From assembly GCA_021825365.1 (NCBI GenBank), contig JAKAHR010000026.1, positions 1-48,509 of the forward strand: a DNA stretch of 48,509 bases, given 5' to 3'. Made by a program: the position numbers and the translations under genes. This document shows positions 33,023 through 47,652 of this stretch, one piece after another (the stretch's first letter is position 1; each line of letters starts with the position of its first letter). A model generated the notes under the pieces. It was not told the origin of the DNA. It did no database searches and saw only the letters and a program-made list of their open reading frames with translations. This DNA comes from Nitrospirota bacterium (GTDB lineage Bacteria > Nitrospirota > Thermodesulfovibrionia > Thermodesulfovibrionales > UBA6898).

Positions 33023-33367
33023 GTGATCAATATCCTCTTATGCACGAACAACCGCATCCTCATCAAGAGTCTCTACGGGATGCTGCGCGACGAGGGCTTC
33101 GGCGTCGACATCGCCGAGCACCCCTCGACCGCGGTCCAGATGGCCCTGCAGGGCGGATATGCAGCGGTCATCATGGACTCAGAGCCCTTCGGGCTTTCCG
33201 TAGAGGACGCCATTCGCATCATCAAGACGATCCTGCCGAAGATCGTCGTCATCTTCGTCGGGTATGACCAGATGGACACGGACGTCCTGAGCATCGAGGC
33301 GCCGATTGACCTCGAAAAGTTCAAGAGGACGATCCACAGCATCGGCGGCATGCACAGCGTTCACTAA
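33023..33367 (+). CDS. Receiver-like protein without phosphorylation pocket (pseudo-receiver)
   Basis: 114 aa, GTG start. The fold pattern is CheY-like (INILLCTNNRILIKSLYGML, AAVIMDSEPFG, KIVVIFVGYDQMD, PIDLEKFKRTI), and an Asp sits at the phosphoacceptor position (IMDSE). The acidic pair after strand 1 is replaced by TNN and the conserved Lys of KP is missing (API), so classical phosphorylation is unlikely. The GTG has no Shine-Dalgarno, and the sigma54 start point lies about 4 bases upstream, so leaderless translation is possible. It precedes the first methyltransferase by 20 bases. Confidence 0.65.
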   Translation: MINILLCTNNRILIKSLYGMLRDEGFGVDIAEHPSTAVQMALQGGYAAVIMDSEPFGLSVEDAIRIIKTILPKIVVIFVGYDQMDTDVLSIEAPIDLEKFKRTIHSIGGMHSVH

Positions 33368-33387
33368 ATCCAGAGAAGGGGGAACAG

Positions 33388-34428
33388 ATGGAACCACGCG
33401 AAATTATCTTAAAGGCATTCGAGGGAGGCAGACCCGAAAGGGTCCCGGTCACGCTCTTCGGCGGCGGCATGTGGAGCATCAAGGACTACGGTTCTTCGTT
33501 TGAGGAACTCGGCAAGGATGCGGCAAAGATGGCGGACATGTGCATCAGGGAAGCGGAGAAGATCAGGAGCGACGTCGTCTACGTCGGTTCGGGTTACAAC
33601 AACTTCCACGCCTCCTCCCTCGGCGCGGCCTTCGGGGCCGGGATCAAGTACCGGGAGATCGGCGCGCCTGACCTCACCGCCCATTTCGTCCATTCCGAGG
33701 AGGACATCGACAAGCTCAACATGGACGACCTTTTCAGGGACCCGGTGCTCAAGAACGTCCTGGAGGCGACGCGGATCGTCAAGCAGAAGATCGGGAAGAA
33801 GTACCTCGTGACCATGACCTGCTGGGGCCCCTTCACCCTCGCCGCCCGCTTCGTGGGCGAAGAGGTGTTCATGAAGAACACCTTCAAGAAACCGGCATTC
33901 GTCGAAAAGATGGTGAATTTCTGCGCCGACCTCCTCATCCACCTGTACGAGCCGCTCGTTGCAGAAGGCTCCCTGGAGTGCCTCAGCATCGCCGACCCCA
34001 CCGCATCGGGCGACCTCATCAATCCCAAGCAGATGGCCAGGTTTGCCGTCCCCCCTCTGAAGAAGATGAGCGACTGGGCGAAGTCGAAGAACGCGCATAC
34101 CATCCTTCATATATGCGGCAACACCAGCGACCGGATCGAGCAGTTCATCGACACCGGCTGCAGCGTCATCTTCTTCGACCAGAAGGTCGACATCGCCAAG
34201 GCGAAGGAGGTCCTCTTCGGCAAGATGTGCTTCGGCGGAAACGTCGCCCCGGTGCATGTCCTGCTGAACAAGACGGCTGCCGAGGTGGACGCTGCCTGCA
34301 GGGAAGTGATCGAGGTCGCCGGAAGGGACGGCGGGTTCGTGCTCGTGCCGGGCTGTGACATCCCGCCGACGATCCCCTTCGAAAACCTGAAGGCGTTCCA
34401 TGATGCAGCCTTCAACTGGAAGTACTGA
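33388..34428 (+). CDS. MtaA/UroD-family corrinoid methyltransferase (1)
   Basis: 346 aa. TIM-barrel of the uroporphyrinogen-decarboxylase-like methyltransferase superfamily (MtaA, MtbA, CmuA, MtvB). The zinc motif H-x-C...C is present as His241-Ile-Cys243 (ILHICGNTSDRI) and Cys323 (LVPGCDIPP). UroD catalytic features are absent, and the context rules out haem synthesis. The members activate either CoM thiol or methyl donors such as methoxy-arenes. Start follows GAGAAGGGGGAACAG. As the first methyltransferase behind the sigma54 promoter it may be the substrate-side enzyme, with the second homologue on the CoM side (inference). Confidence 0.9.
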   Translation: MEPREIILKAFEGGRPERVPVTLFGGGMWSIKDYGSSFEELGKDAAKMADMCIREAEKIRSDVVYVGSGYNNFHASSLGAAFGAGIKYREIGAPDLTAHFVHSEEDIDKLNMDDLFRDPVLKNVLEATRIVKQKIGKKYLVTMTCWGPFTLAARFVGEEVFMKNTFKKPAFVEKMVNFCADLLIHLYEPLVAEGSLECLSIADPTASGDLINPKQMARFAVPPLKKMSDWAKSKNAHTILHICGNTSDRIEQFIDTGCSVIFFDQKVDIAKAKEVLFGKMCFGGNVAPVHVLLNKTAAEVDAACREVIEVAGRDGGFVLVPGCDIPPTIPFENLKAFHDAAFNWKY

Positions 34429-34516
34429 CAGGATAAGGTTCCGAGTAGTTGTTTCAGCGAAGGGAGGTGAGGTCGCTTACAGGCGTCAATAAGCCCTGGA
34501 AAAGGGGAGGGAAAAC

Positions 34517-35032
34517 ATGGGATTGTTTGATTTCATCAAGCAGATGCTGGCCCCCGGGCCGGGAAAAAATGCAAGGGAGGAAAGAAAGATGGCAGACAAG
34601 AAGATGACAGTCGAGGAAGTAAACGCCTACATGAAGCAGCAGTGCGGTTTTGTCCCCCGGATGTTCCAGATCATCAACACCGTCACCCCGGAACCCGGCA
34701 GGACCTTTGCCGACTTCTATGCGAGCATCTTCAGCGACGGCGCCCTGTCAAAGAAGGTGAAGGAGCTCATGTTCATGGCAGGCGGAGTCGCCTACTGCTC
34801 GCCGCGGTGCATCATCCACGTGATACCCGCCATCAATTCGGGCGCAACGACCGGAGAGATATTCGAGGCGGCGTCCGTGGGAATGATCCTCGCCGGGTTT
34901 GTCCCGGGCGGCCCGGGCATCCCCTATGCCTTTGAGTATGCCCTGAAATGCCTTGACATCGAGGCGAAGTACCGGAAGGGCGAGACATGGGAATACCTGC
35001 CTCAGCCGAGATTCGACCACGGGGTATTTTAG
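34517..35032 (+). CDS. AhpD/carboxymuconolactone-decarboxylase-like protein with CX3C motif
   Basis: 171 aa. The CMD fold is recognisable (FADFYASIFSDGALSKKVKE, then LMFMAGGVAYCSPRCIIHV). The redox centre reads Cys94-x3-Cys98-x2-His101, whereas AhpD proteins normally have CxxCxxxH, so spacing is altered. A second ATG at 34589 (MADKK) also follows a good GGAGGAAAG site, so a form without the first 24 residues is possible. It is embedded between methyltransferase genes and may protect or reduce a thiol or cob(II)alamin state; function unknown. Confidence 0.75.
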   Translation: MGLFDFIKQMLAPGPGKNAREERKMADKKMTVEEVNAYMKQQCGFVPRMFQIINTVTPEPGRTFADFYASIFSDGALSKKVKELMFMAGGVAYCSPRCIIHVIPAINSGATTGEIFEAASVGMILAGFVPGGPGIPYAFEYALKCLDIEAKYRKGETWEYLPQPRFDHGVF

Positions 35033-35046
35033 GTCGCCGCCCCCCT

Positions 35047-35076
35047 CCCCCGTCCCCCCATCCGGGGGGACGGGGG
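35047..35076. other. Very GC-rich hairpin in the spacer before the MtrH-family gene
   Basis: A 13-bp stem (35047-35059 with 35064-35076) and loop ATCC, followed on the plus strand by CACAAAAAAAG rather than a T-run. It could slow RNA polymerase or stabilise the mRNA end of the upstream genes; it is not a classical terminator for the plus strand. Confidence 0.5.
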
Positions 35077-35171
35077 GCACAAAAAAAGAGGGCGTCCTAT
35101 TCGCGGGAATAAGATCAGCCCCCAGTGAAACGATAGCCTATTTTAGCACAATTCCCTGAAAAGGAGAGCTG

Positions 35172-36131
35172 ATGTTCAGATTTCAGAAAGAGCAGAAGGT
35201 CTACAGCCTGCACGGCATCAAGATAGGCGGCCAGCCGGGAGAAAACCCGCCGCTGATGATCGCATCGCTGTTTCACAATAAAGACAGTGTCACGAAGACC
35301 GATCGGAAAGGCAATTTCGACCGCGAAAGGACGAAGGAGATGCTCCGCCAGATGGAGCAGATATCCGGGGCCACCGGCGTCCCGGCGATGGTCGCCATGG
35401 TCGCCAACACCCCGGAAGAGGCAAAACTATATATCGATTTCTATCTCGAAAACACGTCCATGCCGTTCGGCATCGACATGTGGGTCGCGGAGCAGCGGGC
35501 CAAGGCGACGGAATACGTCTCGAAGCTCGGCGTGCAGGACAAGTTCCTCTACAACAGCATCACCCCGTGGGACAAGGACATCCCCGGCCAGGTGAAGCGG
35601 CTGAAGGACCTCGGCATCAGGCACGTGGTCGTTCAGGCGTACGACGATGCCGACCAGACCCCCGCGGGCAGGGTGAAATCCCTCGAGTCGATCCTGGGCC
35701 AGGGCGCAGACTCGTTCCAGACCGTCATTGTCGATACCTCGGTGATGAACATGCCGTCCACCTCCTTCTCCCTCGTCGCCAACCGGCTGATCAAGGAAAA
35801 GCACGGCCTCCCCTGCGGCGGCGCGTACTCCAACGGGACGCATATGTGGAAGGAGTGCAAGGAAAAGTGGGGGCTCGACGGGTTCAGGGCGATGGACGCG
35901 GTCGTCCAGGGAATGGCCTCGGCCCTCTGGTCTGATTTCAACTTCTGCGGACCGGCCGTCACCGCGCCGCGGGTCTTCCCGGCCGTCGCCAGCGCGCACA
36001 TCCTGCTTTCGACCCTGGTGTACGACGAAAGCGGCGTCATCTTCGATAACCCGGACCTGCCCATCCGAAAGCACTTCGCGGACTTCATCGCCAAGATGCA
36101 GGAGGGCGGCTCGAGGAAAAAAGGAAAATAA
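35172..36131 (+). CDS. MtrH-family methyltransferase (methylcorrinoid : tetrahydropterin/folate)
   Basis: 319 aa. The N-terminus MFRFQKEQKVYSLHGIKIGG followed by QPGENPPLMIASLF is diagnostic of the MtrH family, as are ENTSMPFGIDMW and DKFLYNSITPWDK. The fold is a DHPS-like TIM barrel that binds the pterin. In methanogens MtrH handles methyl-tetrahydromethanopterin. Bacterial relatives (MtvA, MtgA) move methyl groups between a corrinoid protein and tetrahydrofolate, which is the likely role here. Start ATG follows AAAAGGAGAGCTG. Its presence ties the cluster to one-carbon metabolism. Confidence 0.93.
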   Translation: MFRFQKEQKVYSLHGIKIGGQPGENPPLMIASLFHNKDSVTKTDRKGNFDRERTKEMLRQMEQISGATGVPAMVAMVANTPEEAKLYIDFYLENTSMPFGIDMWVAEQRAKATEYVSKLGVQDKFLYNSITPWDKDIPGQVKRLKDLGIRHVVVQAYDDADQTPAGRVKSLESILGQGADSFQTVIVDTSVMNMPSTSFSLVANRLIKEKHGLPCGGAYSNGTHMWKECKEKWGLDGFRAMDAVVQGMASALWSDFNFCGPAVTAPRVFPAVASAHILLSTLVYDESGVIFDNPDLPIRKHFADFIAKMQEGGSRKKGK

Positions 36132-36164
36132 GAGCAGAGGATACGGAAAGGAGATTTACCGTTC

Positions 36165-37190
36165 ATGAATTCACGAGAGAGAGTCCTGAAACTGTTCAAG
36201 AAGGAGGCGATCGACAGGGTCCCCTGCTTCAGCGGCATGGGGAACATCACCGAGACCGGCATCAACAAACTCGGGTACCGGTTCGCCGGCATCCATCTTG
36301 ACGCAAAACAGATGGCGGAGACCGCCGCGACAACCTATAAGCTCTTCGGCTACGAATGCGGCGTCGTCCCGGTCGACCTCTGCGTCGAGGCCGAGGCGAT
36401 GGGCTGCATCATCAATGTCTACCCTCACGCCGAGGGCATCCTCTACCCGACGATCAAGGAGAAGCTGATACACGGGGAAGACGATATGGATATCTCGGTG
36501 CCGAAGGACCTGGCGACGCGCGGCCGGATACCCCTGCTGAAAGAGGCGATCAGGCTGCTGAAGGCCGACATCGGAGACAACGTGGCGGTCGGCTCGTACG
36601 TCCTCGGACCCTTCACGCTCGCGGGACAGATCATGGAGCTCAACGACCTGCTGAAGCTCTCCTTCAAGAAGGCCGACAAGGTCGCGAAACTTCTTGATGT
36701 CATGGCCGACGCCCTCGTCATCGTCGCGAAGGAGTACGAGAAGGCGGGCGTCGACTACATCACCGTCAGGGAAATGGGCGCCACCAGCGACGTCCTGAGC
36801 CCGAGGGTCTTCAAGAACCTGATCCTGCCGCCTCTGCAGAAGGTGATCAGGGCGATATCCGGCTTCTCGGTCCTGCATATCTGCGGCAAGACGAACGATA
36901 TCGTCACCGCGATGATGGAGGCGGGGCCGACCGCGATCAGCGTGGAGCAGAAGAATGATGTCGCCGAATCGAGAAAGAAGCTCGGCAGCGACGCCCTCAT
37001 CTTCGGCAACTTCGACCCCTACAATGTCCTGGTATCCGGCACCGAGGACCTCGTCCGCTCGACGATGCGCAAGTGCATCGACGACGGCGTCAGCGCCGTC
37101 TGGCCGGGCTGCGACATATGGCCGACGGTGCCGCCCCAGAACATGACCGCAATGATTGACGAAGTTAAAACATACGGAGGTAAAAAGTAA
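36165..37190 (+). CDS. MtaA/UroD-family methyltransferase (2), candidate methylcorrinoid:CoM methyltransferase
   Basis: 341 aa, same superfamily as the 33388 gene but clearly different in sequence. The zinc site is His238-Ile-Cys240 (VLHICGKTNDI) and Cys316 (WPGCDIWP), a spacing close to that of archaeal MtaA/MtbA. Start ATG with AAAGGAG upstream. The stop overlaps the ATG of the corrinoid-protein gene (TAATG), so the two are translationally coupled, supporting direct partnership. Because CoM-synthesis genes lie downstream, a role in methyl-CoM formation is a reasonable inference. Confidence 0.9.
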   Translation: MNSRERVLKLFKKEAIDRVPCFSGMGNITETGINKLGYRFAGIHLDAKQMAETAATTYKLFGYECGVVPVDLCVEAEAMGCIINVYPHAEGILYPTIKEKLIHGEDDMDISVPKDLATRGRIPLLKEAIRLLKADIGDNVAVGSYVLGPFTLAGQIMELNDLLKLSFKKADKVAKLLDVMADALVIVAKEYEKAGVDYITVREMGATSDVLSPRVFKNLILPPLQKVIRAISGFSVLHICGKTNDIVTAMMEAGPTAISVEQKNDVAESRKKLGSDALIFGNFDPYNVLVSGTEDLVRSTMRKCIDDGVSAVWPGCDIWPTVPPQNMTAMIDEVKTYGGKK

Positions 37191-37876
37191 TGGCTGACGA
37201 AGCTCGCAAGAAAGAGATCTATGAGAAGCTCAGGACCGGTGTAATACAGTATGATGAGGACGCCTGCAGGGAAGGGGCCCAGGAGGCGGTGTCCGAAGGG
37301 CTCGACGCCAACGAGGCGATCTTCGACGGCCTCGTCTCGGGCATGGAGGAGGTCGGCAGGCTCTTCGAGGCGCAGGAGTATTTCGTGCCGGAGATCCTGA
37401 TGTGCGCCGACGCCCTGTACGCGGGCCTCGACATCCTGAAGCCCCACTGCAAGCAGATGGACCTCGGGGTGAAGGGCTCCGTCGTCATCGGCACGGTGGA
37501 AGGCGACGTCCACGACATCGGCAAGAACCTCGTCAAGATGATGTTCGACGTCGCCGGGTTCACCGTCTATGACCTCGGCAGGGACGTGCCCCTCGACAAG
37601 TTCGTCGACGAGCAACTCAAGACGGATTCCGAGCTGGTGTGTCTGTCCGCCATGATGACCACCTCGATGGTCGGCATGCCGAAGGTCATCGAAAAGATCA
37701 AGGCGAAGAACCCCAACTGCATGATCATGATCGGCGGCGCGCCGACGTCCAAGGAGCTCGCCGACAAGTGGGGCGCCGACGGGTACGCAGAAGACGCCAG
37801 CAACGCGCTGAAAGAGGCGATCAAGATGGTCGCGTTCCTGAAGAAGCTGAGGGACGAAAAGATACAGAAGAAATAG
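37190..37876 (+). CDS. Corrinoid protein (MtaC/MtbC/MtgC type)
   Basis: 228 aa. An N-terminal four-helix cap (residues 1-90, B12-binding_2: EAIFDGLVSGMEEVGRLFE) and a Rossmann B12-binding domain with the lower-ligand motif D106-V-H108-D-I-G111 (VEGDVHDIGKN), then LSAMMTTSM and IMIGGAP. It carries the methyl group as methyl-Co(III) between the methyltransferases. Coupled to the upstream MtaA-like gene; followed after 6 bases by an Fe-S protein gene. Confidence 0.96.
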   Translation: MADEARKKEIYEKLRTGVIQYDEDACREGAQEAVSEGLDANEAIFDGLVSGMEEVGRLFEAQEYFVPEILMCADALYAGLDILKPHCKQMDLGVKGSVVIGTVEGDVHDIGKNLVKMMFDVAGFTVYDLGRDVPLDKFVDEQLKTDSELVCLSAMMTTSMVGMPKVIEKIKAKNPNCMIMIGGAPTSKELADKWGADGYAEDASNALKEAIKMVAFLKKLRDEKIQKK

Positions 37877-37882
37877 GCTGCC

Positions 37883-38533
37883 GTGGACGCTGACCCGCTG
37901 AAGCAGTTTCTGCAGGCAGAGGGGGCCACGCTTGTCGGAGTCGGAGACGTGAGGAGGGCCCTGTCGCAGGAGATCATGCATCTCGGCAGAGGCATCGCGA
38001 TCGCGGTCAACCGGGGCCTCACCCGGGACACCGTCGACCTGCTCATGCGTCTCCAGGCCCTGACCGAAGGGTGGCTCCGGGCAAAGGGATACCGGAGCCT
38101 GTCGATCCCGCCGGACTCGGACCGGAGGATGGGCAAGATGATCTCGAAGCTCTATAAACTCTTCTGCCACAAGACCGCGGCGACCTGCGCCGGCCTCGGC
38201 TGGATCGGCAAAAACGGCCTGCTCATCAACGAGCGGTACGGCTCGAAGATGACCTGGGCCACGGTCCTGACGGATGCCCCGTTGGCGACCGACCGGCCTT
38301 ATGTCTCCTCCCGATGCGGAGACTGCGACCTGTGCGTGCGCCACTGCCCCTCCGGTGCGGTGCAGGGCCATCTCTGGTCCCTCGGCGACCCGATGCGCGA
38401 GATCGTCTCGTACGACAAGTGCAGGTCGCTGAAGTCGGGCCGGACGTCGCTCAGGGAAAAGCCGAACTGCGGGTTCTGCGTAACCGTCTGCCCGTATTCG
38501 CGCAATGGAGGAGAGCAGCAGAAGGCGGGATGA
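37883..38533 (+). CDS. QueG-like double [4Fe-4S] protein
   Basis: 216 aa, GTG start. Two cluster motifs: CGDCDLCVRHCPSGA (CX2CX2CX3CP) and CGFCVTVCP with a further upstream Cys (YDKCRS). The region KTAATCAGLGWIGKNGLLI resembles the epoxyqueuosine reductase core, but the protein is much shorter than QueG (about 300-380 aa), and its cobalamin-binding domain appears reduced. Relatives of this length are often near corrinoid methyltransferases and could supply electrons for reactivation of Co(II) corrinoid. Role inferred from place in the operon. Confidence 0.82.
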   Translation: MDADPLKQFLQAEGATLVGVGDVRRALSQEIMHLGRGIAIAVNRGLTRDTVDLLMRLQALTEGWLRAKGYRSLSIPPDSDRRMGKMISKLYKLFCHKTAATCAGLGWIGKNGLLINERYGSKMTWATVLTDAPLATDRPYVSSRCGDCDLCVRHCPSGAVQGHLWSLGDPMREIVSYDKCRSLKSGRTSLREKPNCGFCVTVCPYSRNGGEQQKAG

Positions 38534-38704
38534 CCGGAGGGTCCTGCCGGTGCAGCCATCCCGGCGTCTTTGGGAAGGGCAGGCACCGCCTCCCGGTTCC
38601 CCTCCCCGTCGCGGAGGGAAGAAGGGGAAGGTCATCCGGGCGGGCCGGAAACAGCAACCATTGTTGACCGATATCATTACTACGACAACAGGAGGAATGG
38701 ATAG

Positions 38705-40696
38705 ATGGGCCGTACGTTTAAGGTAATATTCCAGCCGGCAGGCCGGCGGGGAGAGATAGAGGAAGGGACAACGATACTCAAGGCCGCTCAGCGCCTGGGC
38801 GTTGACCTCGAGGCGCTCTGCGGAGACAAGAAGGTCTGCGGGAAGTGCAAGGTCAGGATAGAGGAAGGGTATTTCGAAAAGGACAACCTCGAATCCGGAA
38901 TGAAACACATAACCCCCTTTGAGCCGACCCCCGATGAGCTCAAGCATATCAAACCGGAAGACGGACCGGGCATCAGGCTCGCCTGCTCCTGCGAGATCCA
39001 TGGGGACCTCAAGGTGTTCGTGCCGGAACGCTCGAGGGCGGGAAAGCAGGTCGTGCGAAAGGCGGCAAAGGAACTCTCGATCGCCCTCGACCCGGCGGTG
39101 AAGAAATACACCCTTGCACTGACCGCCCCGACGCTGCACGACATGACGACAGGCGACTATGAGCGGGTCGTCAGGGCGATGGAGGAGACCTACGGGATAA
39201 AGGACCTGCAGTTCAATTTCGAGGTGCTGCTCCAGCTGCAGGACGCCCTGCGCGAGGGAGAATGGACGATAACCCTGACGGTCTGGATGGGCAGGGAGAT
39301 CATCAAGGTCGAGCCGGGTCACGTGGACGTCTGCTACGGCCTCGCCGTCGACATCGGCACCACCACCTGCGTCGGATACCTCTGCGACCTCTCGACCGGA
39401 AAGGTGGTGAACACCGAATCGATGATGAACCCGCAGGTCCCCTACGGCGAGGACGTGATGTCGCGGATCACTTACGCCATGACCAATCCCGAAGGCCTCA
39501 AGACGATGCAGGACGCGATCATCACCGGCCTCAACGAGATCATCGAGAAGGTGGTCGCCGAGGTGAAGAAGGACGGCCCCCATCCGGGAGTTGCGATCGA
39601 TGACCTCACCATCGTCTTCAACACGGCGATGCACCACATATTCCTCGGGCTGAACCCGGTCTACATCGGCCGTTCCCCCTTCATCCCGGCGGTGCAGCGC
39701 TCCCTGGACATCAAGGCCCGCGACCTGGGGCTGAGGATCAACCCGGGAGCCTACATCCACGTGCTGCCGATCGAGGCGGGGTTTGTCGGGGCCGATAATG
39801 TCGGCGTCCTGATCGCCCAGGAACAGTATTTCCAGGACGACATGGTCCTCATCATCGACATCGGCACCAACGGCGAGCTTCTCCTGGGCAACAGGGACCG
39901 GGTATGCTCCACCTCCTGCGCGACCGGCCCCGCCTTCGAGGGCGCGCAGATAAAGTTCGGCATGCGGGCCGCCCCCGGAGCGATCGAGAAGGTGAAGATA
40001 GACCCGGAGACCAGGGAGCCGAAGTATAAGGTCATCGGCAAGGCGGACTGGCATACCCATATCGAGGGGAAGATCAACGCAAAGGGCATCTGCGGCTCCG
40101 CCATCATCGATGTGATCGCCGAGATGTTCCTGGCAGGGGTCATCGACAGGACCGGGAAATTCGTGATGGACCTCGGCACCAGCAGGATCAGGAAGGATGT
40201 GACTGGGAAGCCCGAGTATGTCCTCGCCTGGGCCGAAGAGACGTCGATCAACCAAGACATCACGGTCACGCAGGGCGATGTGCGGGCGCTGCAGCTCGCA
40301 AAGGGCGCCCTTTACACCGGCGCGAAGCTGATGATGCAGAAGATGGGCGTCACCAGGCTCGACCGGGTCGAGCTTGCCGGGGCCTTCGGCAGCCATATCG
40401 ACCGCGAGGCGTCTCTCATGCTCGGCATGTTCCCCGACGTGCCGATCGACAAGGTGGTGGTCGTCGGAAATGCCGCCGGCGACGGCGCGAGGATGGCGCT
40501 CCTGAACAAGGCCAAGCGGATCGAGGCGGACGAGCGCGCCCGCTGGGTCGAGTTCGTCGAGATCGCCACGGAGCCGACCTTCGAGAAGGAATTCATGCAG
40601 GCGATGCATATCCCGCACATGAAGGACAAGTTCCCGAACCTCAAGAAGATGCTCGAGGAGCAGAAGTCTCTGGTCGCCCCGGGCATCAAGGGATAG
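38705..40696 (+). CDS. Corrinoid reductive activase: N-terminal 2Fe-2S ferredoxin plus ASKHA ATPase domain
   Basis: 663 aa. Residues 1-105 are a plant-type ferredoxin with Cys39, Cys45, Cys48 and Cys94 (ALCGDKKVCGKC ... LACSC). The C-terminal ASKHA (DUF4445-type) part has phosphate loops AVDIGTTTCVGYL and LIIDIGTNGELLLG, and ends with ELAGAFGSHIDREASL. It belongs to the bacterial RACE/AcsV-like activators that use ATP to reduce inactive Co(II) corrinoid to Co(I). This contrasts with archaeal RamA, which has two 4Fe-4S clusters and a different ATPase. Start follows AGGAGGAATGGATAG. A 171-base spacer without a gene precedes it. Confidence 0.95.
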   Translation: MGRTFKVIFQPAGRRGEIEEGTTILKAAQRLGVDLEALCGDKKVCGKCKVRIEEGYFEKDNLESGMKHITPFEPTPDELKHIKPEDGPGIRLACSCEIHGDLKVFVPERSRAGKQVVRKAAKELSIALDPAVKKYTLALTAPTLHDMTTGDYERVVRAMEETYGIKDLQFNFEVLLQLQDALREGEWTITLTVWMGREIIKVEPGHVDVCYGLAVDIGTTTCVGYLCDLSTGKVVNTESMMNPQVPYGEDVMSRITYAMTNPEGLKTMQDAIITGLNEIIEKVVAEVKKDGPHPGVAIDDLTIVFNTAMHHIFLGLNPVYIGRSPFIPAVQRSLDIKARDLGLRINPGAYIHVLPIEAGFVGADNVGVLIAQEQYFQDDMVLIIDIGTNGELLLGNRDRVCSTSCATGPAFEGAQIKFGMRAAPGAIEKVKIDPETREPKYKVIGKADWHTHIEGKINAKGICGSAIIDVIAEMFLAGVIDRTGKFVMDLGTSRIRKDVTGKPEYVLAWAEETSINQDITVTQGDVRALQLAKGALYTGAKLMMQKMGVTRLDRVELAGAFGSHIDREASLMLGMFPDVPIDKVVVVGNAAGDGARMALLNKAKRIEADERARWVEFVEIATEPTFEKEFMQAMHIPHMKDKFPNLKKMLEEQKSLVAPGIKG

Positions 40697-40705
40697 CGTT
40701 TCCCG

Positions 40706-41029
40706 ATGGCACGGGTGAGGGTCGATCCGGGACAGTGCGGCATGCGTGTCGTCGTGCAGGTCGACAGGAAAGGGAAGGACGTCTTCGAGCTGCTGATCAC
40801 GAGTGACTGCGAGATGGCCCGGAAGCTCGGGGAAACGCTCCCCAGCCTCACGCTGGCCGATGCCTTCAAGAAGTTCCCAGACAACCCTGTCTACAAGAAA
40901 GGCGCGGCATGCCTCAGGCATGCCGCCTGCCCCGTACCGAGCGCGGTCCTCAAGGCTCTCGAGGTAGAAGCGGGCCTCGGGGTGCCGCGGGACGTGACGA
41001 TCGTCTTCATGAAAGATGAAGACGAATAG
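40706..41029 (+). CDS. Small Cys-containing protein (DUF6951-like) of methyltransferase clusters
   Basis: 107 aa. The sequence has VDPGQCGMRVVVQV near the start, an internal ITSDCEMARKL and the terminal block KKGAACLRHAACPVPSAV with Cys-x4-(H)-x2-Cys. I recognise this pattern from uncharacterised proteins that accompany MtrH/UroD-type methyltransferases. The Cys/His pattern suggests metal binding. It lies 9 bases after the activase stop, so it is part of the operon. Confidence 0.75.
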   Translation: MARVRVDPGQCGMRVVVQVDRKGKDVFELLITSDCEMARKLGETLPSLTLADAFKKFPDNPVYKKGAACLRHAACPVPSAVLKALEVEAGLGVPRDVTIVFMKDEDE

Positions 41030-41085
41030 CCCCCGCCGGGGAGTATCGGGATACCCCCTGCCCGCCGGCTGAGGCACGTCGCCCC

Positions 41086-41895
41086 ATGCCTGAAATAACC
41101 TATTACAAGCCATGGGTCCTCTTCTGGGTCTGCGCTGTCCTCGCCCACGCATACATGGACCGTTCCCTCTGGCTGAAATGGAGTTCATGGAAACGGGGAC
41201 AACCGCAGTCCTCCGGCCGTAACTGGACGTTCGGCAGCGTGCGGATATGGCTCATGGAGGTCCTGCTCCAGAGGCAGCTCCTCGGGCTCTCCTTCACCCG
41301 CTGGATGATCCACCTGCTGATCTTCTGGGGCTTTCTCTGCCTCGCGGCCCTCTCCCTCTTCCTCTTCTTCCTCTCGATCGCGGGATCGATCGGCATCGCC
41401 GGGGGCCTTCGGGAATTCTTCCTGCGGGGAAGCGGACACGCGCTGGCAAAGGTATGGGGGGATTTCTTCGGACTCTGCCTCCTCCTGGGACTGACCGCAG
41501 CCGGTATCAGGCGTCTCATCATGCGGCCGCACCAACTCCTCAATGACCAGGGAGACGGGACTCTCCTCGTCTTTCTCCTGTGGCTCGTTATCAGCGGGTT
41601 CCTCCTTGAGGCGCTCCGTCTCGGCCAGGCGCATCATGATATGGCCCGGTATTCCTTTGTTGCGTATTCCCTCGCGCCTCTCCTTGCGATCGACTCCATG
41701 GATGCGGGTCAGTGGCTGACAGCCGCCTGGGTCATTCATTCCCTCAGCGGCATCGGACTGCTCCTCTACCTGCCGCAGAGCAAACTCATGCACAGCCTGC
41801 TCGCCCCTGTTGTCATCGCACTGAACGCCTCCGAAGAACAGGGGAGAAAGGATATCTATTGGCCGGGGATAAAGGGCCACAGGCCGACAAGATAG
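41086..41895 (+). CDS. NarI/HdrE/DsrM-like membrane cytochrome b subunit (1)
   Basis: 269 aa with about five or six membrane helices (for example FTRWMIHLLIFWGFLCLAAL, FFGLCLLLGLTAAG, GTLLVFLLWLVISGFLL, WVIHSLSGIGLLLYL). Histidines in helices (His82-like in WMIHLL, SGHALAK, WVIHSL, KLMHSL) are suited as haem b ligands. It should exchange electrons between quinone/menaquinone and the Fe-S subunit encoded next. Its 3' end overlaps that gene by 37 bases. No strong ribosome site is present; GAGG lies 12 bases upstream of the ATG. Confidence 0.82.
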   Translation: MPEITYYKPWVLFWVCAVLAHAYMDRSLWLKWSSWKRGQPQSSGRNWTFGSVRIWLMEVLLQRQLLGLSFTRWMIHLLIFWGFLCLAALSLFLFFLSIAGSIGIAGGLREFFLRGSGHALAKVWGDFFGLCLLLGLTAAGIRRLIMRPHQLLNDQGDGTLLVFLLWLVISGFLLEALRLGQAHHDMARYSFVAYSLAPLLAIDSMDAGQWLTAAWVIHSLSGIGLLLYLPQSKLMHSLLAPVVIALNASEEQGRKDIYWPGIKGHRPTR

Positions 41896-43139
41896 CAGCG
41901 GGACTTACCCGGAGGCAGCTGATCGAGATCGAGGCCTGCTCCCGGTGCGGGGAGTGCCTTCTGTGGTGTCCCGTCTTCCCGCACGATCCGCGTGAGGAGA
42001 TCTCATCCCGCGGGAAGCTCGGCAGGATCAGGAAGCTGGCGGGCGGGATCGCCTCCCCCTCGGATGAGGCGGCCCTGCTCGATGGTCTCTACGCCTGCTC
42101 CGCATGCGGCCAGTGCCATGTCGTCTGTCCAATCCGCATCAATACGCCGGAGTTGTGGGAGCAGGCACGCCTGGCATTGGCAAACTCCGGACTGTTGCAG
42201 CCCGAGGCGCAGATACAACAGCTGAAGACGATCCGGGAGTACGACAATTCATATGGCAAACCCCGGGCGCAGAGGGGGCTGTGGGCCGAGCGGGCCTCTC
42301 GGGCCGGATTCTTTCTCGGCCCTGTCCCGACATGGAGCGAACAGCAGTCGGAGGTCCTCTATTTTGCCGGGTGCACTGCGAGCTTTGATGAGACGATGCA
42401 GCCGGTGGCAGTTCAATCCGCCCGTCTCCTCCAGGAGGCGGGTGTGCGTTTTTCGATCCTCGGGGCTGATGAGCCCTGCTGCGCGAGCAAACTCCGGCGC
42501 ATGGGAGACAACGAATTCAGGACAGAGGCGTCACGGCGGGCGGAGATGCTCGCCGGAAAGAAGGTGCGGACGATCGTCGTCTCCTGCGCAGGCTGTTTCA
42601 AGGGACTGCATTCCGACTACCGCGGGATCCTCCCGCCGTCCGTCGAGGTACTGCACCTCACCGAATTCCTCTGGAGGCTGATCCGGGAGGGCAGTCTCAA
42701 GCCGAGGCATGAAGTGCCCCTCACCGTCACCTATCACGACCCCTGCCACCTGGGACGGCATAACGGCATCTATGAAGAGCCGCGGAAGGTCCTGGGGTCG
42801 ATCCCGGGTCTGCACGTCGTCGAGATGAAGCGGTCCGGCCCCTTCTCCGCCTGCTGCGGCATGGGCGGCGGGTTGAAGCTTGCCCGGCCTGATCTGCAGA
42901 AGAAGATGTCGGCAGCCAGAATCAGGGAGGCGGAGGCTGCCGGAGCGGAGGCTGTGGTAACGCCCTGCCAGACCTGTCTCATGGGTCTCTCCGCAGGGGC
43001 CGCTGCAGCCGCTTCATCGCTGCCGGTATTTCACCTCAACGAGATGCTGGTCCGTTCCGTCTGCCCGGAGATCACCTTCGATACGATCGCGGCCGGACTA
43101 AAGTCTTCTGATGGACAGGGCGGAAGGTCTGCTCCATGA
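41859..43139 (+). CDS. HdrD-like iron-sulfur protein (HdrC-HdrB fusion) (1)
   Basis: 426 aa from a TTG start at 41859 (AAAGG precedes it); an upstream in-frame extension to 41712 overlaps the membrane gene and is not protein-like. Two [4Fe-4S] ferredoxin motifs: Cys27-30-33-37 (CSRCGECLLWCPVFP) and CSACGQCHVVCPI. Two CCG domains follow, the first with YFAGCTASFD...EPCCASKL...CAGC, the second with HDPCHLGR...ACCGMGGG...CQTC. CCG domains bind the noncubane cluster that splits disulfides in heterodisulfide reductase. GlcF, DsrK and LutA share the fold, so the disulfide substrate is inferred from context. Confidence 0.88.
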   Translation: MAGDKGPQADKIAAGLTRRQLIEIEACSRCGECLLWCPVFPHDPREEISSRGKLGRIRKLAGGIASPSDEAALLDGLYACSACGQCHVVCPIRINTPELWEQARLALANSGLLQPEAQIQQLKTIREYDNSYGKPRAQRGLWAERASRAGFFLGPVPTWSEQQSEVLYFAGCTASFDETMQPVAVQSARLLQEAGVRFSILGADEPCCASKLRRMGDNEFRTEASRRAEMLAGKKVRTIVVSCAGCFKGLHSDYRGILPPSVEVLHLTEFLWRLIREGSLKPRHEVPLTVTYHDPCHLGRHNGIYEEPRKVLGSIPGLHVVEMKRSGPFSACCGMGGGLKLARPDLQKKMSAARIREAEAAGAEAVVTPCQTCLMGLSAGAAAAASSLPVFHLNEMLVRSVCPEITFDTIAAGLKSSDGQGGRSAP

Positions 43140-43306
43140 GATCAGGTTTATGCCTGATGAGGCTATAATAGGATCAGGAGAGGAAATAGAGGCCGCACAG
43201 GAGAATCCATGCCTTCCATGGCAGCCGTTGCCGCACCGCATACGTCGCACGCAACTCAAAAAAGAGCCTCCTGCAGAGGGGCGGCCGGGGTGTCGGCCTG
43301 ATACGG

Positions 43307-43993
43307 ATGGGGGTCCTCCTTGCATGCGCAGCCTATGCCGTCTATGCCGCATTCATCTGCCGGCTGTTCTTCCATATCCTGCTGTGGGTCCGGGCGTCGG
43401 AACAGGCGTTCACGAGACCGGCGTATGCCGTGCGCATCCGTCCGAATACGGTGGCCGTCACCGCGCTTGACCTCCTCTTCTTAAGAAGGCTCTTCAGCCA
43501 GAACAAACTGCTCTGGATCGGGTCGTGGACCTTCCACCTCTCGTTCCTGCTCGTCTTCCTGGGTCATATGCGGTATTTTCTCAATCCGGTGCCCGCGTGT
43601 ATCACCTGTTTGCAGCCCTTTGGACTCGTTGCCGGATACCTGCTGCCCCTGTCGCTCATCCTGCTGCTTATTCTGAGGACATCATCAGGGAAGAACCGGT
43701 ATGTATCCGTGTACAACTATTTTCTGCTGGGAACCGCCCTGGTGATCAGCCTGAGCGGCCTCGGCCTCAGGGTCTTTATCCATCCCGACCTGGCGGAGAT
43801 CAAGGCGTACATCCTGGCTCTGTTCACCTTCAGGCCGGAAGCGCTGCCGCAGAGCATCGTCTTTGTCGCGCACTTCAGCCTCGTGCTGTTCCTGCTGCCC
43901 TTCCTCCCCCTTCATATGGTGGCAGCCCCCCTCGTCACGCTGGATGCCCGCCGCAGGGAAGATGAACTCAGGACGGTGATGCATGAAAGATAA
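43307..43993 (+). CDS. NarI/HdrE/DsrM-like membrane cytochrome b subunit (2)
   Basis: 228 aa, five likely helices. The pattern WTFHLSFLLVFLGHMRYF in one helix and FVAHFSLVLFLLPFLPLHMV in the last resembles the haem-ligand helices of DsrM/HdrE. Start ATG at 43307 is the first in frame; the 167 bases before it contain no convincing gene, only a TATAAT at 43164. It overlaps the following HdrD-like gene by 11 bases. Different in sequence from the first module, so it is an old duplication or separate recruitment. Confidence 0.82.
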   Translation: MGVLLACAAYAVYAAFICRLFFHILLWVRASEQAFTRPAYAVRIRPNTVAVTALDLLFLRRLFSQNKLLWIGSWTFHLSFLLVFLGHMRYFLNPVPACITCLQPFGLVAGYLLPLSLILLLILRTSSGKNRYVSVYNYFLLGTALVISLSGLGLRVFIHPDLAEIKAYILALFTFRPEALPQSIVFVAHFSLVLFLLPFLPLHMVAAPLVTLDARRREDELRTVMHER

Positions 43994-45194
43994 AGACACC
44001 TTCACCGGATGTCTCAGCCGGCGACAGCTGCTCGAGATAGACGCCTGCACGCAGTGCGGGGAGTGCCTGAAGTTCTGCCCCGTGCAGGAGGTGACCGGGA
44101 ACCCCCTCATCTCTCCGCCCGAGAAGATCCGCCTCTTCAGGGAGTTCATCAGGGCGACCGAAGGCCTCGGGGCCAGGCTCCTCGGAGGCCGCGAGATCGA
44201 CCGGAAGCTGCTCGAGGACTTCAGCCACGCTGTCTTCGAATGCACCACCTGCGGGGCCTGCAGCCGGCACTGCACCGTGGGCATCTCCACCCAGCGGCTC
44301 TGGCCGATGCTCCGGAAGGAGATGGTGCGGAGGGGCCTCGGCCCGCTCGGTCCCCAGGCGGGGATGCCGGGTGCGATCCGGGAAACGGGAAACCCTTACA
44401 GCAAGCCGTCAGCCGAACGCTTCGCCCCCTGGTTCCCCGAAGGGGTTGTTGTTTCAGAAAAGGCGGAGATCGCCTACTATGCAGGCTGCACAGGGGCTTA
44501 TGAGGCGCAGCCGATGGTGCGGGGAGATGTCAGTGTCCTTAGCGCAGCAGGCGAACCCTTCACCATGCTCCCCCCTGAAGAGGAGGTCTGCTGCGGCTTC
44601 CCGCTCTTCATCACCGGCCAGCACGATCTCCTGGAGGACCTCACGAAGAGGCTCGTCAGCGCCTACCAGGAAAGGGGCGTGAAGACCCTGGTCTGTTCCT
44701 GCCCCTGCTGCGTCAACATCATGTCCCGGGACTGGCCGATCTTTTTTGGAAAAGACCTGCCGTTCAGGATCAGACACATCACCCAGTATGCCGCCGAGGC
44801 TCTCCGCAGCGGCAGGCTCCGCATCGCGGGAGAGCTTCGGGAGCGGCTGATCTATCACGACCCCTGCTACCTGAGCAGGGGCGTCGGGGTCATCGATGAG
44901 CCCCGGGAAGTGCTCCGGGCGATACCCGGCGCCGAACTCATCGAGTTCGATCGCCACGGCCTCGCGTCGCGCTGCTGCGGGGCGGGGGGGGCCGCGCGGA
45001 AGGTCTTCCATGACAACGCGATCGCGACGGGCAGGCTCGCGATAGACGAGGCGGTTGCAAAATCCGCTGACAGGCTCATCCTGAGCTGCCCTGCGTGTTA
45101 CGCCAAGGTGAATGAGGCGCTGCAGGGTCATGACAAACAGGTGAGGATCACCGATATCATGGAGCTCCTTGCAGGGCTGGTGGAAAGAAGATAG
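43983..45194 (+). CDS. HdrD-like iron-sulfur protein (HdrC-HdrB fusion) (2)
   Basis: 403 aa. Ferredoxin motifs Cys22-25-28-32 (CTQCGECLKFCPVQE) and CTTCGACSRHCTVGI, the second having Thr instead of Pro after the last Cys. CCG domain 1: YYAGCTGAYE...EVCCGFPL...CSCPCC; CCG domain 2: HDPCYLSRG...RCCGAGGA...CPAC. Same architecture as the first HdrD-like protein, coupled to its own membrane subunit. With the pair upstream, the locus encodes two HdrED-like complexes in a row. The CoM genes start 100 bases downstream. Confidence 0.88.
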   Translation: MKDKDTFTGCLSRRQLLEIDACTQCGECLKFCPVQEVTGNPLISPPEKIRLFREFIRATEGLGARLLGGREIDRKLLEDFSHAVFECTTCGACSRHCTVGISTQRLWPMLRKEMVRRGLGPLGPQAGMPGAIRETGNPYSKPSAERFAPWFPEGVVVSEKAEIAYYAGCTGAYEAQPMVRGDVSVLSAAGEPFTMLPPEEEVCCGFPLFITGQHDLLEDLTKRLVSAYQERGVKTLVCSCPCCVNIMSRDWPIFFGKDLPFRIRHITQYAAEALRSGRLRIAGELRERLIYHDPCYLSRGVGVIDEPREVLRAIPGAELIEFDRHGLASRCCGAGGAARKVFHDNAIATGRLAIDEAVAKSADRLILSCPACYAKVNEALQGHDKQVRITDIMELLAGLVERR

Positions 45195-45295
45195 GGACTG
45201 GGAAATGTGCTTGCTGGACTGGTATTCTAGGGCATGCGGATTTCGCGGATGCTTCGGGCCTTCTGCACGGCATGTTCCGGACCGGAAGTGCTGAC

Positions 45296-46549
45296 GTGAG
45301 CCACTTTACCATACGTTGCAGGAAGTGCGGCAAGGTGCTCGTTGATACCTACTGCACCTTCTGCGAGCATTGCGCAAACTCCCTGCTGGTCACGGAATAT
45401 CAGGTGCCCTTCAGGGGAGACTGCGGCAGCGGCATCTGGAAGTTCAACTGGCTTCCGGTGCACACGCCCTCCTTCGATCAGCCGGGCACGCTCGTCTATC
45501 GTTCCGAATGGCTCGCCCGCCACCTGGGGCTCGAAAACCTCTACATCGACTTCAACGGGTACTGGCCCTCCCGCGGCGCCTTTATCGAGACCTGCACCTT
45601 CAAGGAGTTCGAGGCTGCCGTCGTCCTCCAGAACGCGGTCGAAAACAGGGTCAGGGGGCTTGTCGTCGCCTCTGCGGGAAATACGGCGCGCGCCTTTGCC
45701 CATCTGTCGGTCGTATCCGGCTTCCCGGTCATCATCGTGGTGCCGAGGATGTGCCTCATGGAGATGTGGTACCTCGAAAGCTCCTCTGCCGTGCCGACGC
45801 TTGCGGTCGGAGACGGCGACTACTCCGACGCGATCGACGTCGCCCGGAGGATCGCCGCCATCGCGAACTTCCCCTTCGAAGGGGGGGTAAAGAACGTCGC
45901 AAAGCGCGACGGTCTCGGCTCAACGATGCTCGAGGCGGTCCTTAAGATCGGCTCTCTTCCCGATCATTATTTCCAGGCAGTCGGCAGCGGCACCGGGGGG
46001 ATAGGCGTCTGGGAGATGTGCGAGCGGCTGCTCCGCGACGGCCGGTTCGGGGGCAGGCTCCCGCGGCTGCATCTTGCGCAGAACCTGCCGTTTGCTCCCA
46101 TGACAAAGGCGTGGGAGAGGCGCAGCAGGGACCTCGCCCCGGAGGACCTCAGGCCGGAACTCATCGGCCAGATATCGACCCGCGTGCTGTCGACCAGGTA
46201 TCCTGCCTACAGCGTACAGGGCGGCGTCTTCGATGCACTCGCCGCAACGGACGGGAAGATGTACGGGGTCACGAACCGGGAGGTCTTCGAATCCATGGAG
46301 CTCTTCAGCAACCTGGAGGGTGTCGATATCGTCCCTGCATCGGGCGTCGCGGTGAGTGCGCTCGGCCAGGCGGTCAGGACCGGCGCGGTCGGGAAGAAAG
46401 AGGTGGTCCTGCTGAACATCACCGGCGGCGGGGAGATGATCGTCGGCAGGGAAAAAAAGACGTATAACGTGGAACCCGCCTTTATCTCGAAAAAGGTGAC
46501 GGATGAGGAGATAGAACACCTGGTATGCGATATCCTGAAGAAGAGCTGA
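45296..46549 (+). CDS. Cysteate synthase (threonine-synthase-like, PLP)
   Basis: 417 aa from GTG 45296 (GGAAG precedes); ATG 45272 would add eight residues but has no ribosome site. N-terminal Cys-rich motif CRKCGK...CTFCEHC as in cysteate synthases. PLP Lys103 in IETCTFKEFEA, PLP phosphate loop SAGNTARAF, and GSGTGGIGVWEM. The family makes L-cysteate from O-phosphoserine and sulfite (EC 2.5.1.76), the committed step of the Methanosarcinales route to coenzyme M. It differs from threonine synthase in the active-site segment around Lys103. The next gene, ComDE-like, overlaps it by 25 bases and takes sulfopyruvate, obtained from cysteate by transamination. Strong functional pairing. Confidence 0.88.
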   Translation: MSHFTIRCRKCGKVLVDTYCTFCEHCANSLLVTEYQVPFRGDCGSGIWKFNWLPVHTPSFDQPGTLVYRSEWLARHLGLENLYIDFNGYWPSRGAFIETCTFKEFEAAVVLQNAVENRVRGLVVASAGNTARAFAHLSVVSGFPVIIVVPRMCLMEMWYLESSSAVPTLAVGDGDYSDAIDVARRIAAIANFPFEGGVKNVAKRDGLGSTMLEAVLKIGSLPDHYFQAVGSGTGGIGVWEMCERLLRDGRFGGRLPRLHLAQNLPFAPMTKAWERRSRDLAPEDLRPELIGQISTRVLSTRYPAYSVQGGVFDALAATDGKMYGVTNREVFESMELFSNLEGVDIVPASGVAVSALGQAVRTGAVGKKEVVLLNITGGGEMIVGREKKTYNVEPAFISKKVTDEEIEHLVCDILKKS

Positions 46550-47652
46550 TAGCGGCCCTGCGGGAAAGCGGCGTGGATTTCACCGCGTCCCTGCCCTGCG
46601 AAAAGATCAAGTCACTCCTCGTGATGGTGGCAGAAAGATTTCCCCACGTGCCGCTGACGCGCGAGGAGGAAGGCGTCGGCATCTGTGCAGGCGCCGCCCT
46701 TGCCGGCAGAAGACCCGCCCTGTTCCTTCAGAGTTCAGGGATCGGGAACATGATAAACGCCCTCCTGTCGCTCACCTCTTTTTATGAACTGCCGCTCGCC
46801 CTCTTCATCAGCCGGCGGGGAGTTTACCGGGAACAGATACAGGCGCAGCTGCCGATGGGGAAGGGGCTGCCGAAGCTGCTCAGGGGAGCGGGCATCCCCT
46901 TCACCCTCATCGAGGCCAGGTCTGATCTTGGACGCATCCGGAAGAGACTCGATGAAGTCTACCGGAAAGACCGGCTCCACGCCTTCCTCATGAGCCCCGC
47001 CGTCTGGGAGGGATCGTGCAGTCTCGAGCCGCCTGCCGCCCTGTGTCCTGTTGCCCATGCGGCAGCCCGCCCGAAGACAGGGCATCAGCGCCCCCGCCTC
47101 ACCCGGTTCGGGGTCCTCGAGACGATCGCCCCGTTTCTGGAAGGAAGGGTTGTCGTCTGCAACCTCGGGTTCCCCTCAAAGGAGCTCTTCCACATCAAAC
47201 ACCAGCCGTCTCATTTTTACATGCTCGGGAGCATGGGCATGACAACGCCGATCGGCCTCGGCATCAGCCTCGCGACGGACAGGGAGGTGGTCGTGATCGA
47301 CGGAGACGGCAGCATCCTGATGAACCCCGGCACTCTCGCCACGGCAGCCGCCTTCGGGAGGCCTAATCTCACCATCGTCTGCATTGACAACGGTTCGTAC
47401 GGGTCGACCGGCAGCCAGCCGACGCTCACCGGGGCCTGCGTTGACCTCGAGATGGTCGCCCGGGGGTTCGGGTTCAGACAGACAGCAAAGGTCGCGGGCA
47501 AACAGGAGATCAGGGATATCATGAGGAAGAAGGCAGACAGGGTGAGGTTCATACACATCCTCGCCCTCCCCGGCAACAGGAACGTCCCGCCTATCCCCCT
47601 CGACCACTTCACCATCAAGAAGGCTGTCATCGCCTATCTGGCCGGAAAATAA
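46525..47652 (+). CDS. comDE: Sulfopyruvate decarboxylase, fused alpha and beta subunits
   Basis: 375 aa. Residues 1-165 match the ComD (pyrimidine-binding) half with the cofactor-activating Glu in LTREEEGVGICAGAALAG. Residues 190-375 match the ComE (pyrophosphate-binding) half with the TPP motif DGDGSILMNPG...CIDNGSYGSTG (GDG at 260-262, Asn289). It decarboxylates sulfopyruvate to sulfoacetaldehyde in CoM biosynthesis. Methanosarcina also has a fused ComDE beside cysteate synthase. Phosphonopyruvate decarboxylase is a close alternative, but no PEP mutase is nearby, while cysteate synthase is. It begins inside the previous gene. Last gene of the array. Confidence 0.88.
   Translation: MRYPEEELIAALRESGVDFTASLPCEKIKSLLVMVAERFPHVPLTREEEGVGICAGAALAGRRPALFLQSSGIGNMINALLSLTSFYELPLALFISRRGVYREQIQAQLPMGKGLPKLLRGAGIPFTLIEARSDLGRIRKRLDEVYRKDRLHAFLMSPAVWEGSCSLEPPAALCPVAHAAARPKTGHQRPRLTRFGVLETIAPFLEGRVVVCNLGFPSKELFHIKHQPSHFYMLGSMGMTTPIGLGISLATDREVVVIDGDGSILMNPGTLATAAAFGRPNLTIVCIDNGSYGSTGSQPTLTGACVDLEMVARGFGFRQTAKVAGKQEIRDIMRKKADRVRFIHILALPGNRNVPPIPLDHFTIKKAVIAYLAGK

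Follow-up and report, generated by a model that had tools for sequence, protein, structure and literature searches.

Coenzyme M (CoM) is best known from methane-producing archaea. Here we describe a gene island in a 48,509-nucleotide stretch of Nitrospirota DNA (the window; G000:C52:1-48509), which is predicted, with somewhat better than even confidence, to make CoM by a Methanosarcina-type route and to put it to use in corrinoid-dependent S-methyl transfer, where it would accept the methyl group. In Methanosarcina acetivorans, the genes for cysteate synthase (MA3297), ComDE (MA3298) and then the CoM synthase MMP16 (MA3299) carry neighbouring locus numbers (PMC12068725). Bacterial CoM, as presented in PMC12068725 and PMC12713407, has so far been tied to alkene/epoxide metabolism and is made by a different route. 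In one open-access library we found no paper in which Nitrospirota make CoM or transfer methyl groups to it, as judged by titles and the starts of abstracts, subscription journals lying mostly outside the search.

The source genome comprises 3.26 Mb in 52 contigs and is 91% complete; below, G### denotes a genome and L### a locus around a cysteate synthase gene. Open reading frames (ORFs) and Pfam/NCBIfam profile scans delineate fifteen plus-strand genes spanning 33023–47652. A first-pass annotation had proposed that corrinoid methyl transfer, two HdrED-like modules and CoM synthesis are combined here, and all the genes it named are present on that one strand. A core recurs across Nitrospirota, consisting of two MtaA/UroD-type methyltransferases (UroD1 and UroD2), an AhpD-like protein, MtrH, a corrinoid protein, a 4Fe–4S protein, an activase, DUF6951, HdrE, HdrD, cysteate synthase and ComDE. 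Three of these conserved genes had gone unnamed in the first-pass annotation: the AhpD/carboxymuconolactone decarboxylase (CMD)-like gene (34517), a gene for a double 4Fe–4S protein resembling the QueG C-terminus (37883), and DUF6951 (40706).

Predicted genes for coenzyme M synthesis

The product of the cysteate synthase gene (45296..46549, +) scores 456 bits with TIGR03844 (cutoff 324.9) and, among solved chains, matches the cysteate synthase 9k3c with an E-value of 2.4e-91, against 1.5e-15 for the best threonine synthase. Among 14 control genomes, M. acetivorans is the only one with a match at E 1e-90. Both the curated cutoffs and 9k3c as the nearest solved structure rule out threonine synthase, the identity that had been put forward as fatal to the CoM proposal. 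The start at 45296 is likelier than one at 45272, since M9, counted from 45272, hardly varies across 10 sequences; the first-pass choice of start thus stands.

The last gene of the island codes for a predicted fused sulfopyruvate decarboxylase, ComDE (46525..47652, +). Its alpha half scores 186.8 with TIGR03845, above the cutoff of 147.95. Phosphonopyruvate decarboxylase, the other identity that would have undone the proposal, is ruled out by a score of 196.9, 116 bits below its cutoff of 312.5. Among four further Nitrospirota ComDE proteins, all four pass the alpha cutoff and one passes the beta cutoff. The scores of ComDE from the Alkanophagales locus L117 resemble those of the window's protein, lying above the alpha and beta cutoffs and below that for phosphonopyruvate decarboxylase; L117 belongs to an alkane-oxidising archaeal lineage that uses CoM.

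Methyl-transfer genes

UroD1 (33388..34428, +) is an MtaA/CmuA-type zinc methyltransferase predicted to act on the S-methyl donor side (MT1). It scores 188 bits with TIGR01463 (cutoff 235) and falls below all curated cutoffs tried; its best PDB match is the MtaA structure 4ay7 (E 9e-30). UroD2 (36165..37190, +), an MtaA-like protein predicted to be the corrinoid:CoM methyltransferase (MT2), scores above the cutoff of PRK06252 (254.8 vs. 244), as do its counterparts in three of three further relatives. It lies below the narrower equivalogs MtaA (236/400) and MtbA (170/600) and 2 bits below TIGR01463. UroD1 and UroD2 are 29% and 32% identical to MtaA, respectively, and UroD2 matches 4ay7 with E 2.9e-47. 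The AlphaFold model of UroD2 (pLDDT 91) superimposes on MtaA (4ay7/4ay8) with TM scores of 0.91–0.93, compared to at most 0.84 for UroD decarboxylases. Its zinc ligands are H238, C240 and C316.

The His-Cys-Cys zinc site is present in all distinct sequences of both proteins: 35 of 35 for UroD1, where it takes the form of HxCG and PGCD motifs, and 51 of 51 for UroD2, one of which reads HTCG. This triad marks the S-methyltransferases of the superfamily and suits sulfur or selenium, whereas in O-methyltransferases one cysteine or both give way to other residues (PMC10418091, Kountz and Balskus). Judged by these residues, the zinc site of both UroD1 and UroD2 is of the S/Se-methyltransferase type, in line with the zinc-type MtaA/UroD pair of the first-pass annotation. 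This speaks against a role with methoxylated aromatics and hence bears on a further explanation, namely that the island is an aromatic O-demethylase system of the Mto/Odm/Mtv type, in which the UroD proteins demethylate methoxylated aromatics, MtrH passes the methyl group to tetrahydrofolate, and the CoM genes are incidental. The Mto set does consist of an MtvB-like enzyme, an MtrH-like protein, a corrinoid protein and an activase (PMC8630106), and in one anoxic groundwater, the dominant taxa to take up label from 13C-veratric acid included uncultured Thermodesulfovibrionia (PMC10602745). However, O-demethylases replace one or both of the cysteines that are kept here (PMC10418091), and this explanation, which we regard as very unlikely, would leave the conserved cysteate synthase, ComDE and HdrED without a role.

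The remaining methyl-transfer genes lie around UroD2. The MtrH-family methyltransferase (35172..36131, +; NF002142 314.7 vs. cutoff 287) is predicted to catalyze the methyl-corrinoid:tetrahydrofolate step. Its best solved relatives are the MtrH 8z9u (E 3.9e-46) and the methylcorrinoid:tetrahydrofolate methyltransferase 6sj8 (E 4.6e-38). The first-pass annotation had advised a search for Wood–Ljungdahl genes, and the source genome indeed has a match to the CODH/ACS beta subunit; together with the likeness of MtrH to these structures, this makes a Wood–Ljungdahl link likely. The corrinoid protein (37190..37876, +), the methyl carrier, scores above the cutoffs of PF02310 and PF02607 and below that of TIGR02370 (199.5 vs. 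215.3), and its 66 copies have a mean identity of 81%, duplicates counted. It is followed by the double 4Fe–4S protein (37883..38533, +), which resembles the C-terminus of QueG and reductive dehalogenases (PF13484 32.6 vs. cutoff 30), has invariant cysteines and is a possible electron donor to the corrinoid. Next comes a RACo/AcsV-type corrinoid reductive activase (38705..40696, +), with PF14574 at 319, PF17651 at 180 and PF17650 at 78 bits, each above its cutoff.

The HdrED pairs

The first-pass annotation had counted two HdrE+HdrD pairs. Both are present; they are not equivalent. HdrD2 (43983..45194, +), of the conserved pair, is an HdrD-like protein with two complete CCG motifs (C-X31-39-CC-X35-36-CXXC) in 63 of 63 distinct sequences. 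HdrD1 (41859..43139, +; PF02754), a CCG/ferredoxin protein of the extra pair, has one complete CCG motif in three full-length sequences, two other extractions being short fragments with none, and it was found in only 5 of 71 named loci. Its partner HdrE1 (41086..41895, +) is a NarI/HdrE-like membrane protein (PF02665 31.3 vs. cutoff 22.9) with a best match in 10 of the 71 loci, several at 22–26% identity. By inspection, the TTG at 41859 is a likelier start for HdrD1 than the GTG at 41712; it follows AGAAAGGA, and a gene that begins there overlaps HdrE1 at its end. HdrE2 (43307..43993, +), a NarI/DsrM-like membrane protein, scores below the cutoff of the DsrM-like model NF038037 (62 bits vs. 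300) and just below that of PF02665 (22.0 vs. 22.9), while H77, H87, H189 and H203 are invariant in 52 sequences. DsrK was rejected as an identity for HdrD2 (91 bits vs. cutoff 400). Two CCG motifs are typical of HdrB/HdrD and also occur in other reductases; those of HdrD2 therefore support, and do not prove, a disulfide substrate.

Conservation of gene order

We examined the genes around cysteate synthase in two sets, one of 30 relatives and one of 71 loci from named genomes, which overlap in that some contigs occur in both. For loci with at least 9.9 kb upstream of cysteate synthase, five markers were scored: MtrH, UroD2, the corrinoid protein, RACo and HdrD2. All five are present there in 20 of 22 loci from relatives and in 38 of 42 from named genomes (L087 being scored as positive on an HdrD-like match of just 38%), nearly always in the same order as in the window, an order that further families of the phylum share. 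Neither beyond ComDE nor ahead of the small protein at the other end (33023) is any gene common to most loci, and thus the island has edges. HdrD2 adjoins cysteate synthase in most loci.

Five-marker misses were L023 and L032 (family f5), L090 (on a contig exactly as long as that of L032), L093, L112 and L117. In L023 and L032 (genomes G042 and G030), the methyl genes and HdrED are on a different contig of the same genome (L129 and L128). L093 has cysteate synthase–ComDE with RACo, the QueG-like gene, DUF6951 and an HdrED1-type pair on the opposite strand; L112 has four of the markers and lacks HdrD2. In L117, the Alkanophagales archaeon, cysteate synthase and ComDE likewise adjoin each other. 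Another split is seen in G052 and G053, where UroD2 is found on one contig and HdrED with cysteate synthase on another.

One variation concerns the gap between DUF6951 and HdrE2, where L024, L039, L041 and L043 have an inserted related gene (cluster c5; in two pieces in L041). The L039 version is a chemoreceptor-like protein with an MCP signalling domain, which perhaps senses the pathway substrate.

Co-occurrence across genomes

We then asked how the genes are distributed in 61 genomes, namely the source genome and 60 relatives, taking at least 68% identity to define UroD2 orthologues (two via partial matches). Cysteate synthase above its cutoff and UroD2 occur together in 29 genomes and neither occurs in another 29. 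Cysteate synthase alone is found in two (G020, 83% complete; G023, 66%) and UroD2 alone in one (G021, 82%). A broader set of 395 genomes was drawn evenly from the phylum and searched with E-value limits of 1e-90 (cysteate synthase) and 1e-130 (UroD2 and HdrD2), with four or five first-look candidates scored per genome. Here, cysteate synthase was found in 59 genomes, UroD2 in 67 and HdrD2 in 63; all three occur in 57, one or two in 10 and none in 328. The partial sets are cysteate synthase with UroD2 (2), UroD2 with HdrD2 (6) and UroD2 alone (2); none of the 395 Nitrospirota genomes has cysteate synthase alone or HdrD2 alone, and UroD2 accompanies cysteate synthase in 59 of 59. These counts are descriptive, genome relatedness being uncorrected.

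Among the partial genomes, HdrD2 is in two pieces in G234, cysteate synthase is in two pieces in G356 and cut at a contig end in G131, and in G127 and G370 HdrD2 lies at a contig end, just where cysteate synthase would come next. The array is real, mostly one unit, and more than chance. Conservation in related genomes, which the first-pass annotation had set as a check, is borne out by the shared order and by the three markers co-occurring genome by genome. Nor does the array break into unrelated operons, its split parts being mostly in the same genome, with G302, G360 and G308 as the exceptions.

Proposed pathway and its alternatives

On the reading that we favour, phosphoserine would be converted through cysteate and sulfopyruvate to sulfoacetaldehyde. 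Sulfoacetaldehyde would become CoM without the help of MMP16: either another enzyme would stand in for it, or sulfide, which the bacterium may form since it has dsrA, would serve. UroD1 would demethylate a methyl-sulfur (or methyl-selenium) compound and load the methyl group onto the corrinoid protein 37190, which MtrH would couple to the tetrahydrofolate pool, and UroD2 would methylate CoM at its zinc-bound thiol. Oxidised corrinoid would be restored by RACo, perhaps aided by the 4Fe–4S protein, and HdrE2–HdrD2 would reduce a CoM disulfide with membrane electrons. Which UroD acts on CoM and the direction of methyl flow are inferred. If true, this would be a new role for CoM outside archaea, joining Methanosarcina-type synthesis, corrinoid methyl transfer and an Hdr-type reductase; it would bear on the origin of the CoM and Hdr parts of methanogenesis and reveal an unrecognised methyl-sulfur step in Nitrospirota.

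Several observations weigh against this reading. First, we know of no CoM measurement in these bacteria. Second, the beta half of the window's ComDE scores 212.4 with TIGR03846, 9 bits below the cutoff of 221.5. The 46525 product nonetheless scores as a sulfopyruvate and not a phosphonopyruvate decarboxylase. Third, the MMP16 family (PF01837) has no match in any of the 61 genomes, 31 of which carry cysteate synthase, while the M. jannaschii and M. acetivorans controls match. The absence of MMP16 is the weak point of the CoM reading, softened by two findings: M. acetivorans deleted for MMP16 can still grow, if with a defect, when sulfide is high and no CoM is added, and sulfide and sulfoacetaldehyde are reported to form CoM abiotically (PMC12068725). 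In the source genome, dsrA scores above its cutoff, which makes sulfide production plausible.

Cysteate also feeds sulfonolipids. The want of MMP16 would also suit an explanation that gives cysteate synthase and ComDE a sulfonate other than CoM as their product, such as isethionate, taurine or a sulfonolipid precursor. We consider this quite unlikely, as ComDE acts beyond the point at which cysteate branches off to sulfonolipids, the family scans of the array genes named no sulfoacetaldehyde reductase or acetyltransferase, and MtaA-like and HdrD-like genes adjoin.

DUF6951 (40706..41029, +), a small protein with invariant C11, C35, H72 and C75, was considered as a CoM synthase. Its predicted fold may be of the IscU/SufU type, and the named relatives include some from Methylomirabilia and Anaerolineales. 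We rejected the assignment because the IscU/SufU likeness is middling and the gene accompanies the methyl genes both in G302 and G360, which have no cysteate synthase match, and in G030 and G042, where cysteate synthase is elsewhere. It remains no more than an idea.

A fourth point is that no known methyl-CoM user is at hand among the genomes searched for MCR and PF00148. The mcrA search urged by the first-pass annotation came out empty, with MCR (PF02249) in none of the 61 genomes and the methanogen controls matching. The nitrogenase-like family PF00148, to which methylthioalkane reductase belongs, matches in 19 of 31 carriers, nitrogenase and others pooled. Because the source genome and 11 other carriers have no match, we rejected a nitrogenase-like methylthioalkane reductase as the general methyl-CoM user. 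A bolder scheme, which we judge unlikely, is a methanogenesis-like metabolism without MCR, in which an unrecognised enzyme would split methyl-CoM to give a CoM disulfide, HdrED would conserve energy at the membrane, and CoM would arise by a new last step, possibly with DUF6951 as an IscU-like sulfur carrier.

Fifth, G302 and G360 (88% and 91% complete) have the methyl genes with no cysteate synthase match, G360 also having no HdrD2, and G308 holds a divergent version; all three look like true exceptions. Finally, with duplicate contigs included, distance correlations are 0.58–0.70 within the synthesis half (cysteate synthase, ComDE and HdrD2), 0.70–0.83 within the methyl half (UroD2, the corrinoid protein, MtrH and the QueG-like protein) and only 0.22–0.50 between them. 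HdrD2 distances correlate at 0.58 with cysteate synthase, 0.63 with ComDE, 0.64 with RACo and 0.50 with UroD1, and at 0.22–0.39 with the members of the methyl half. Thus, the two halves may be two co-resident modules.

The most likely alternative builds on this division into halves: a corrinoid methyl-sulfur/methyl-selenium or methionine-salvage system, like type 1 mlp, would neighbour a CoM-synthesis/HdrED module, with CoM serving as a redox thiol buffer and not as a methyl acceptor. We grant it an appreciable, though clearly minor, chance. It would accommodate the separation by contig of cysteate synthase–ComDE from the methyl genes in G030 and G042, and of HdrED and cysteate synthase from UroD2 in G052 and G053. 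Overexpression of comDE shields M. acetivorans from oxidative stress (PMC12713407), type 1 mlp clusters employ His-Cys-Cys Mlps that have no CoM role (PMC10418091), and an AhpD-like gene lies nearby, joined in some loci by an OsmC-like gene. However, a mere thiol buffer has no need of the UroD2 that accompanies every cysteate synthase in the 395-genome set, and UroD2 scores above the cutoff of a CoM methyltransferase model, PRK06252. Further, HdrED stays with the methyl genes and not with cysteate synthase in G030 and G042; HdrD2 is also apart from cysteate synthase in G302. On balance, the use of CoM as methyl acceptor remains our preferred reading.

Host, spread and neighbouring genes

Among the best 120 matches, the named cysteate synthases closest to the window's are from Nitrospirota, including Candidatus Sulfobium mesophilum at 81%; two lower matches (70–71%) are labelled Acidobacteriota and Betaproteobacteria. 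Three chromosome-level Nitrospirota records (CP070788, CP070737 and CP070669) contain the island. The remaining scanned genes of the window are ordinary bacterial ones, e.g., phosphoglucose isomerase, sensor kinases and RND pumps. A contaminating or mis-binned archaeal contig is ruled out by these bacterial genes and the three chromosome-level records, and the bacterial host assumed in the first-pass annotation is supported.

The island occurs in more than one class of the phylum. Labels among the 71 named loci include Thermoleophilia for L110 and just "bacterium" for L111, and L115 and L117 are archaeal. L110 (1182-12360), from a metagenome-assembled genome labelled Thermoleophilia (Kmv30), runs from UroD1 to ComDE without a QueG-like match, and reflects either transfer into another phylum or a mislabelled bin. 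In G127, from another class of the phylum, the UroD2 (contig C189, 32-1054) is 92% identical to the window's, compared to 69% in two genomes of the same genus, which points to either recent transfer or mis-binning.

The likely first gene of the island (33023..33367, +) codes for a small conserved protein with no Pfam/NCBIfam match; a homologue precedes UroD1 in relatives, and 20 other distinct sequences were aligned. The AhpD/CMD-like gene (34517..35032, +; PF02627 27.7 bits vs. cutoff 23) is kept between UroD1 and MtrH in relatives' loci. Directly upstream of the island are genes for a CobW-type GTPase (30932-31810, −) and an OsmC-related protein (32281-32805, +). The CobW and OsmC clusters (c3 and c2) both flank the island in L033, L045 and L049, with c2 alone in L026 and L038 and c3 alone in L029; these neighbours possibly supply metal to the zinc methyltransferases. 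An antisense open frame of 1389 residues (37019-41188, −), which covers four array genes completely and two others in part, is most likely an artefact of base composition.

Comparison with known systems

The island shares with Methanosarcina CoM biosynthesis the adjoining of cysteate synthase and a fused ComDE. It differs in being bacterial, in having no MMP16-family match in the 61 genomes, and in lying beside methyltransferases and HdrED. With methylotrophic methanogenesis (MtaA/MtbA, HdrDE) it has in common the MtaA fold and zinc site, a corrinoid protein, an activase and a double-CCG HdrD-type protein with a possibly cytochrome-like membrane partner; unlike that system, it lacks MCR (0/61), pairs a soluble MtrH-type protein with the corrinoid protein, and has MtaA-like proteins of only 29–32% identity to MtaA.

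Type 1 mlp clusters (PMC10418091) resemble the island in their two MtaA-like proteins, corrinoid protein, Ram/RACE-type activase and His-Cys-Cys sites, and the island indeed has at least two Mlps, a corrinoid protein and a Ram in one direction and at most 2 kb apart. Those clusters are defined by having no tetrahydrofolate methylase homologue within 20 kb, whereas the island has the MtrH-family gene at 35172 and adds CoM biosynthesis and HdrED. Neither "Nitrospir" nor "cysteate" nor "MtrH" occurs in the main text of PMC10418091. The Mto/Odm O-demethylase clusters likewise combine UroD-family enzymes with an MtrH-like protein, a corrinoid protein and an activase; in contrast, the island has His-Cys-Cys and not O-type zinc sites, along with CoM genes. 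Finally, the alkene/epoxide pathway of Xanthobacter offers the parallel of CoM made by a bacterium, as predicted for the island, by a distinct route that begins at phosphoenolpyruvate (PMC12068725).

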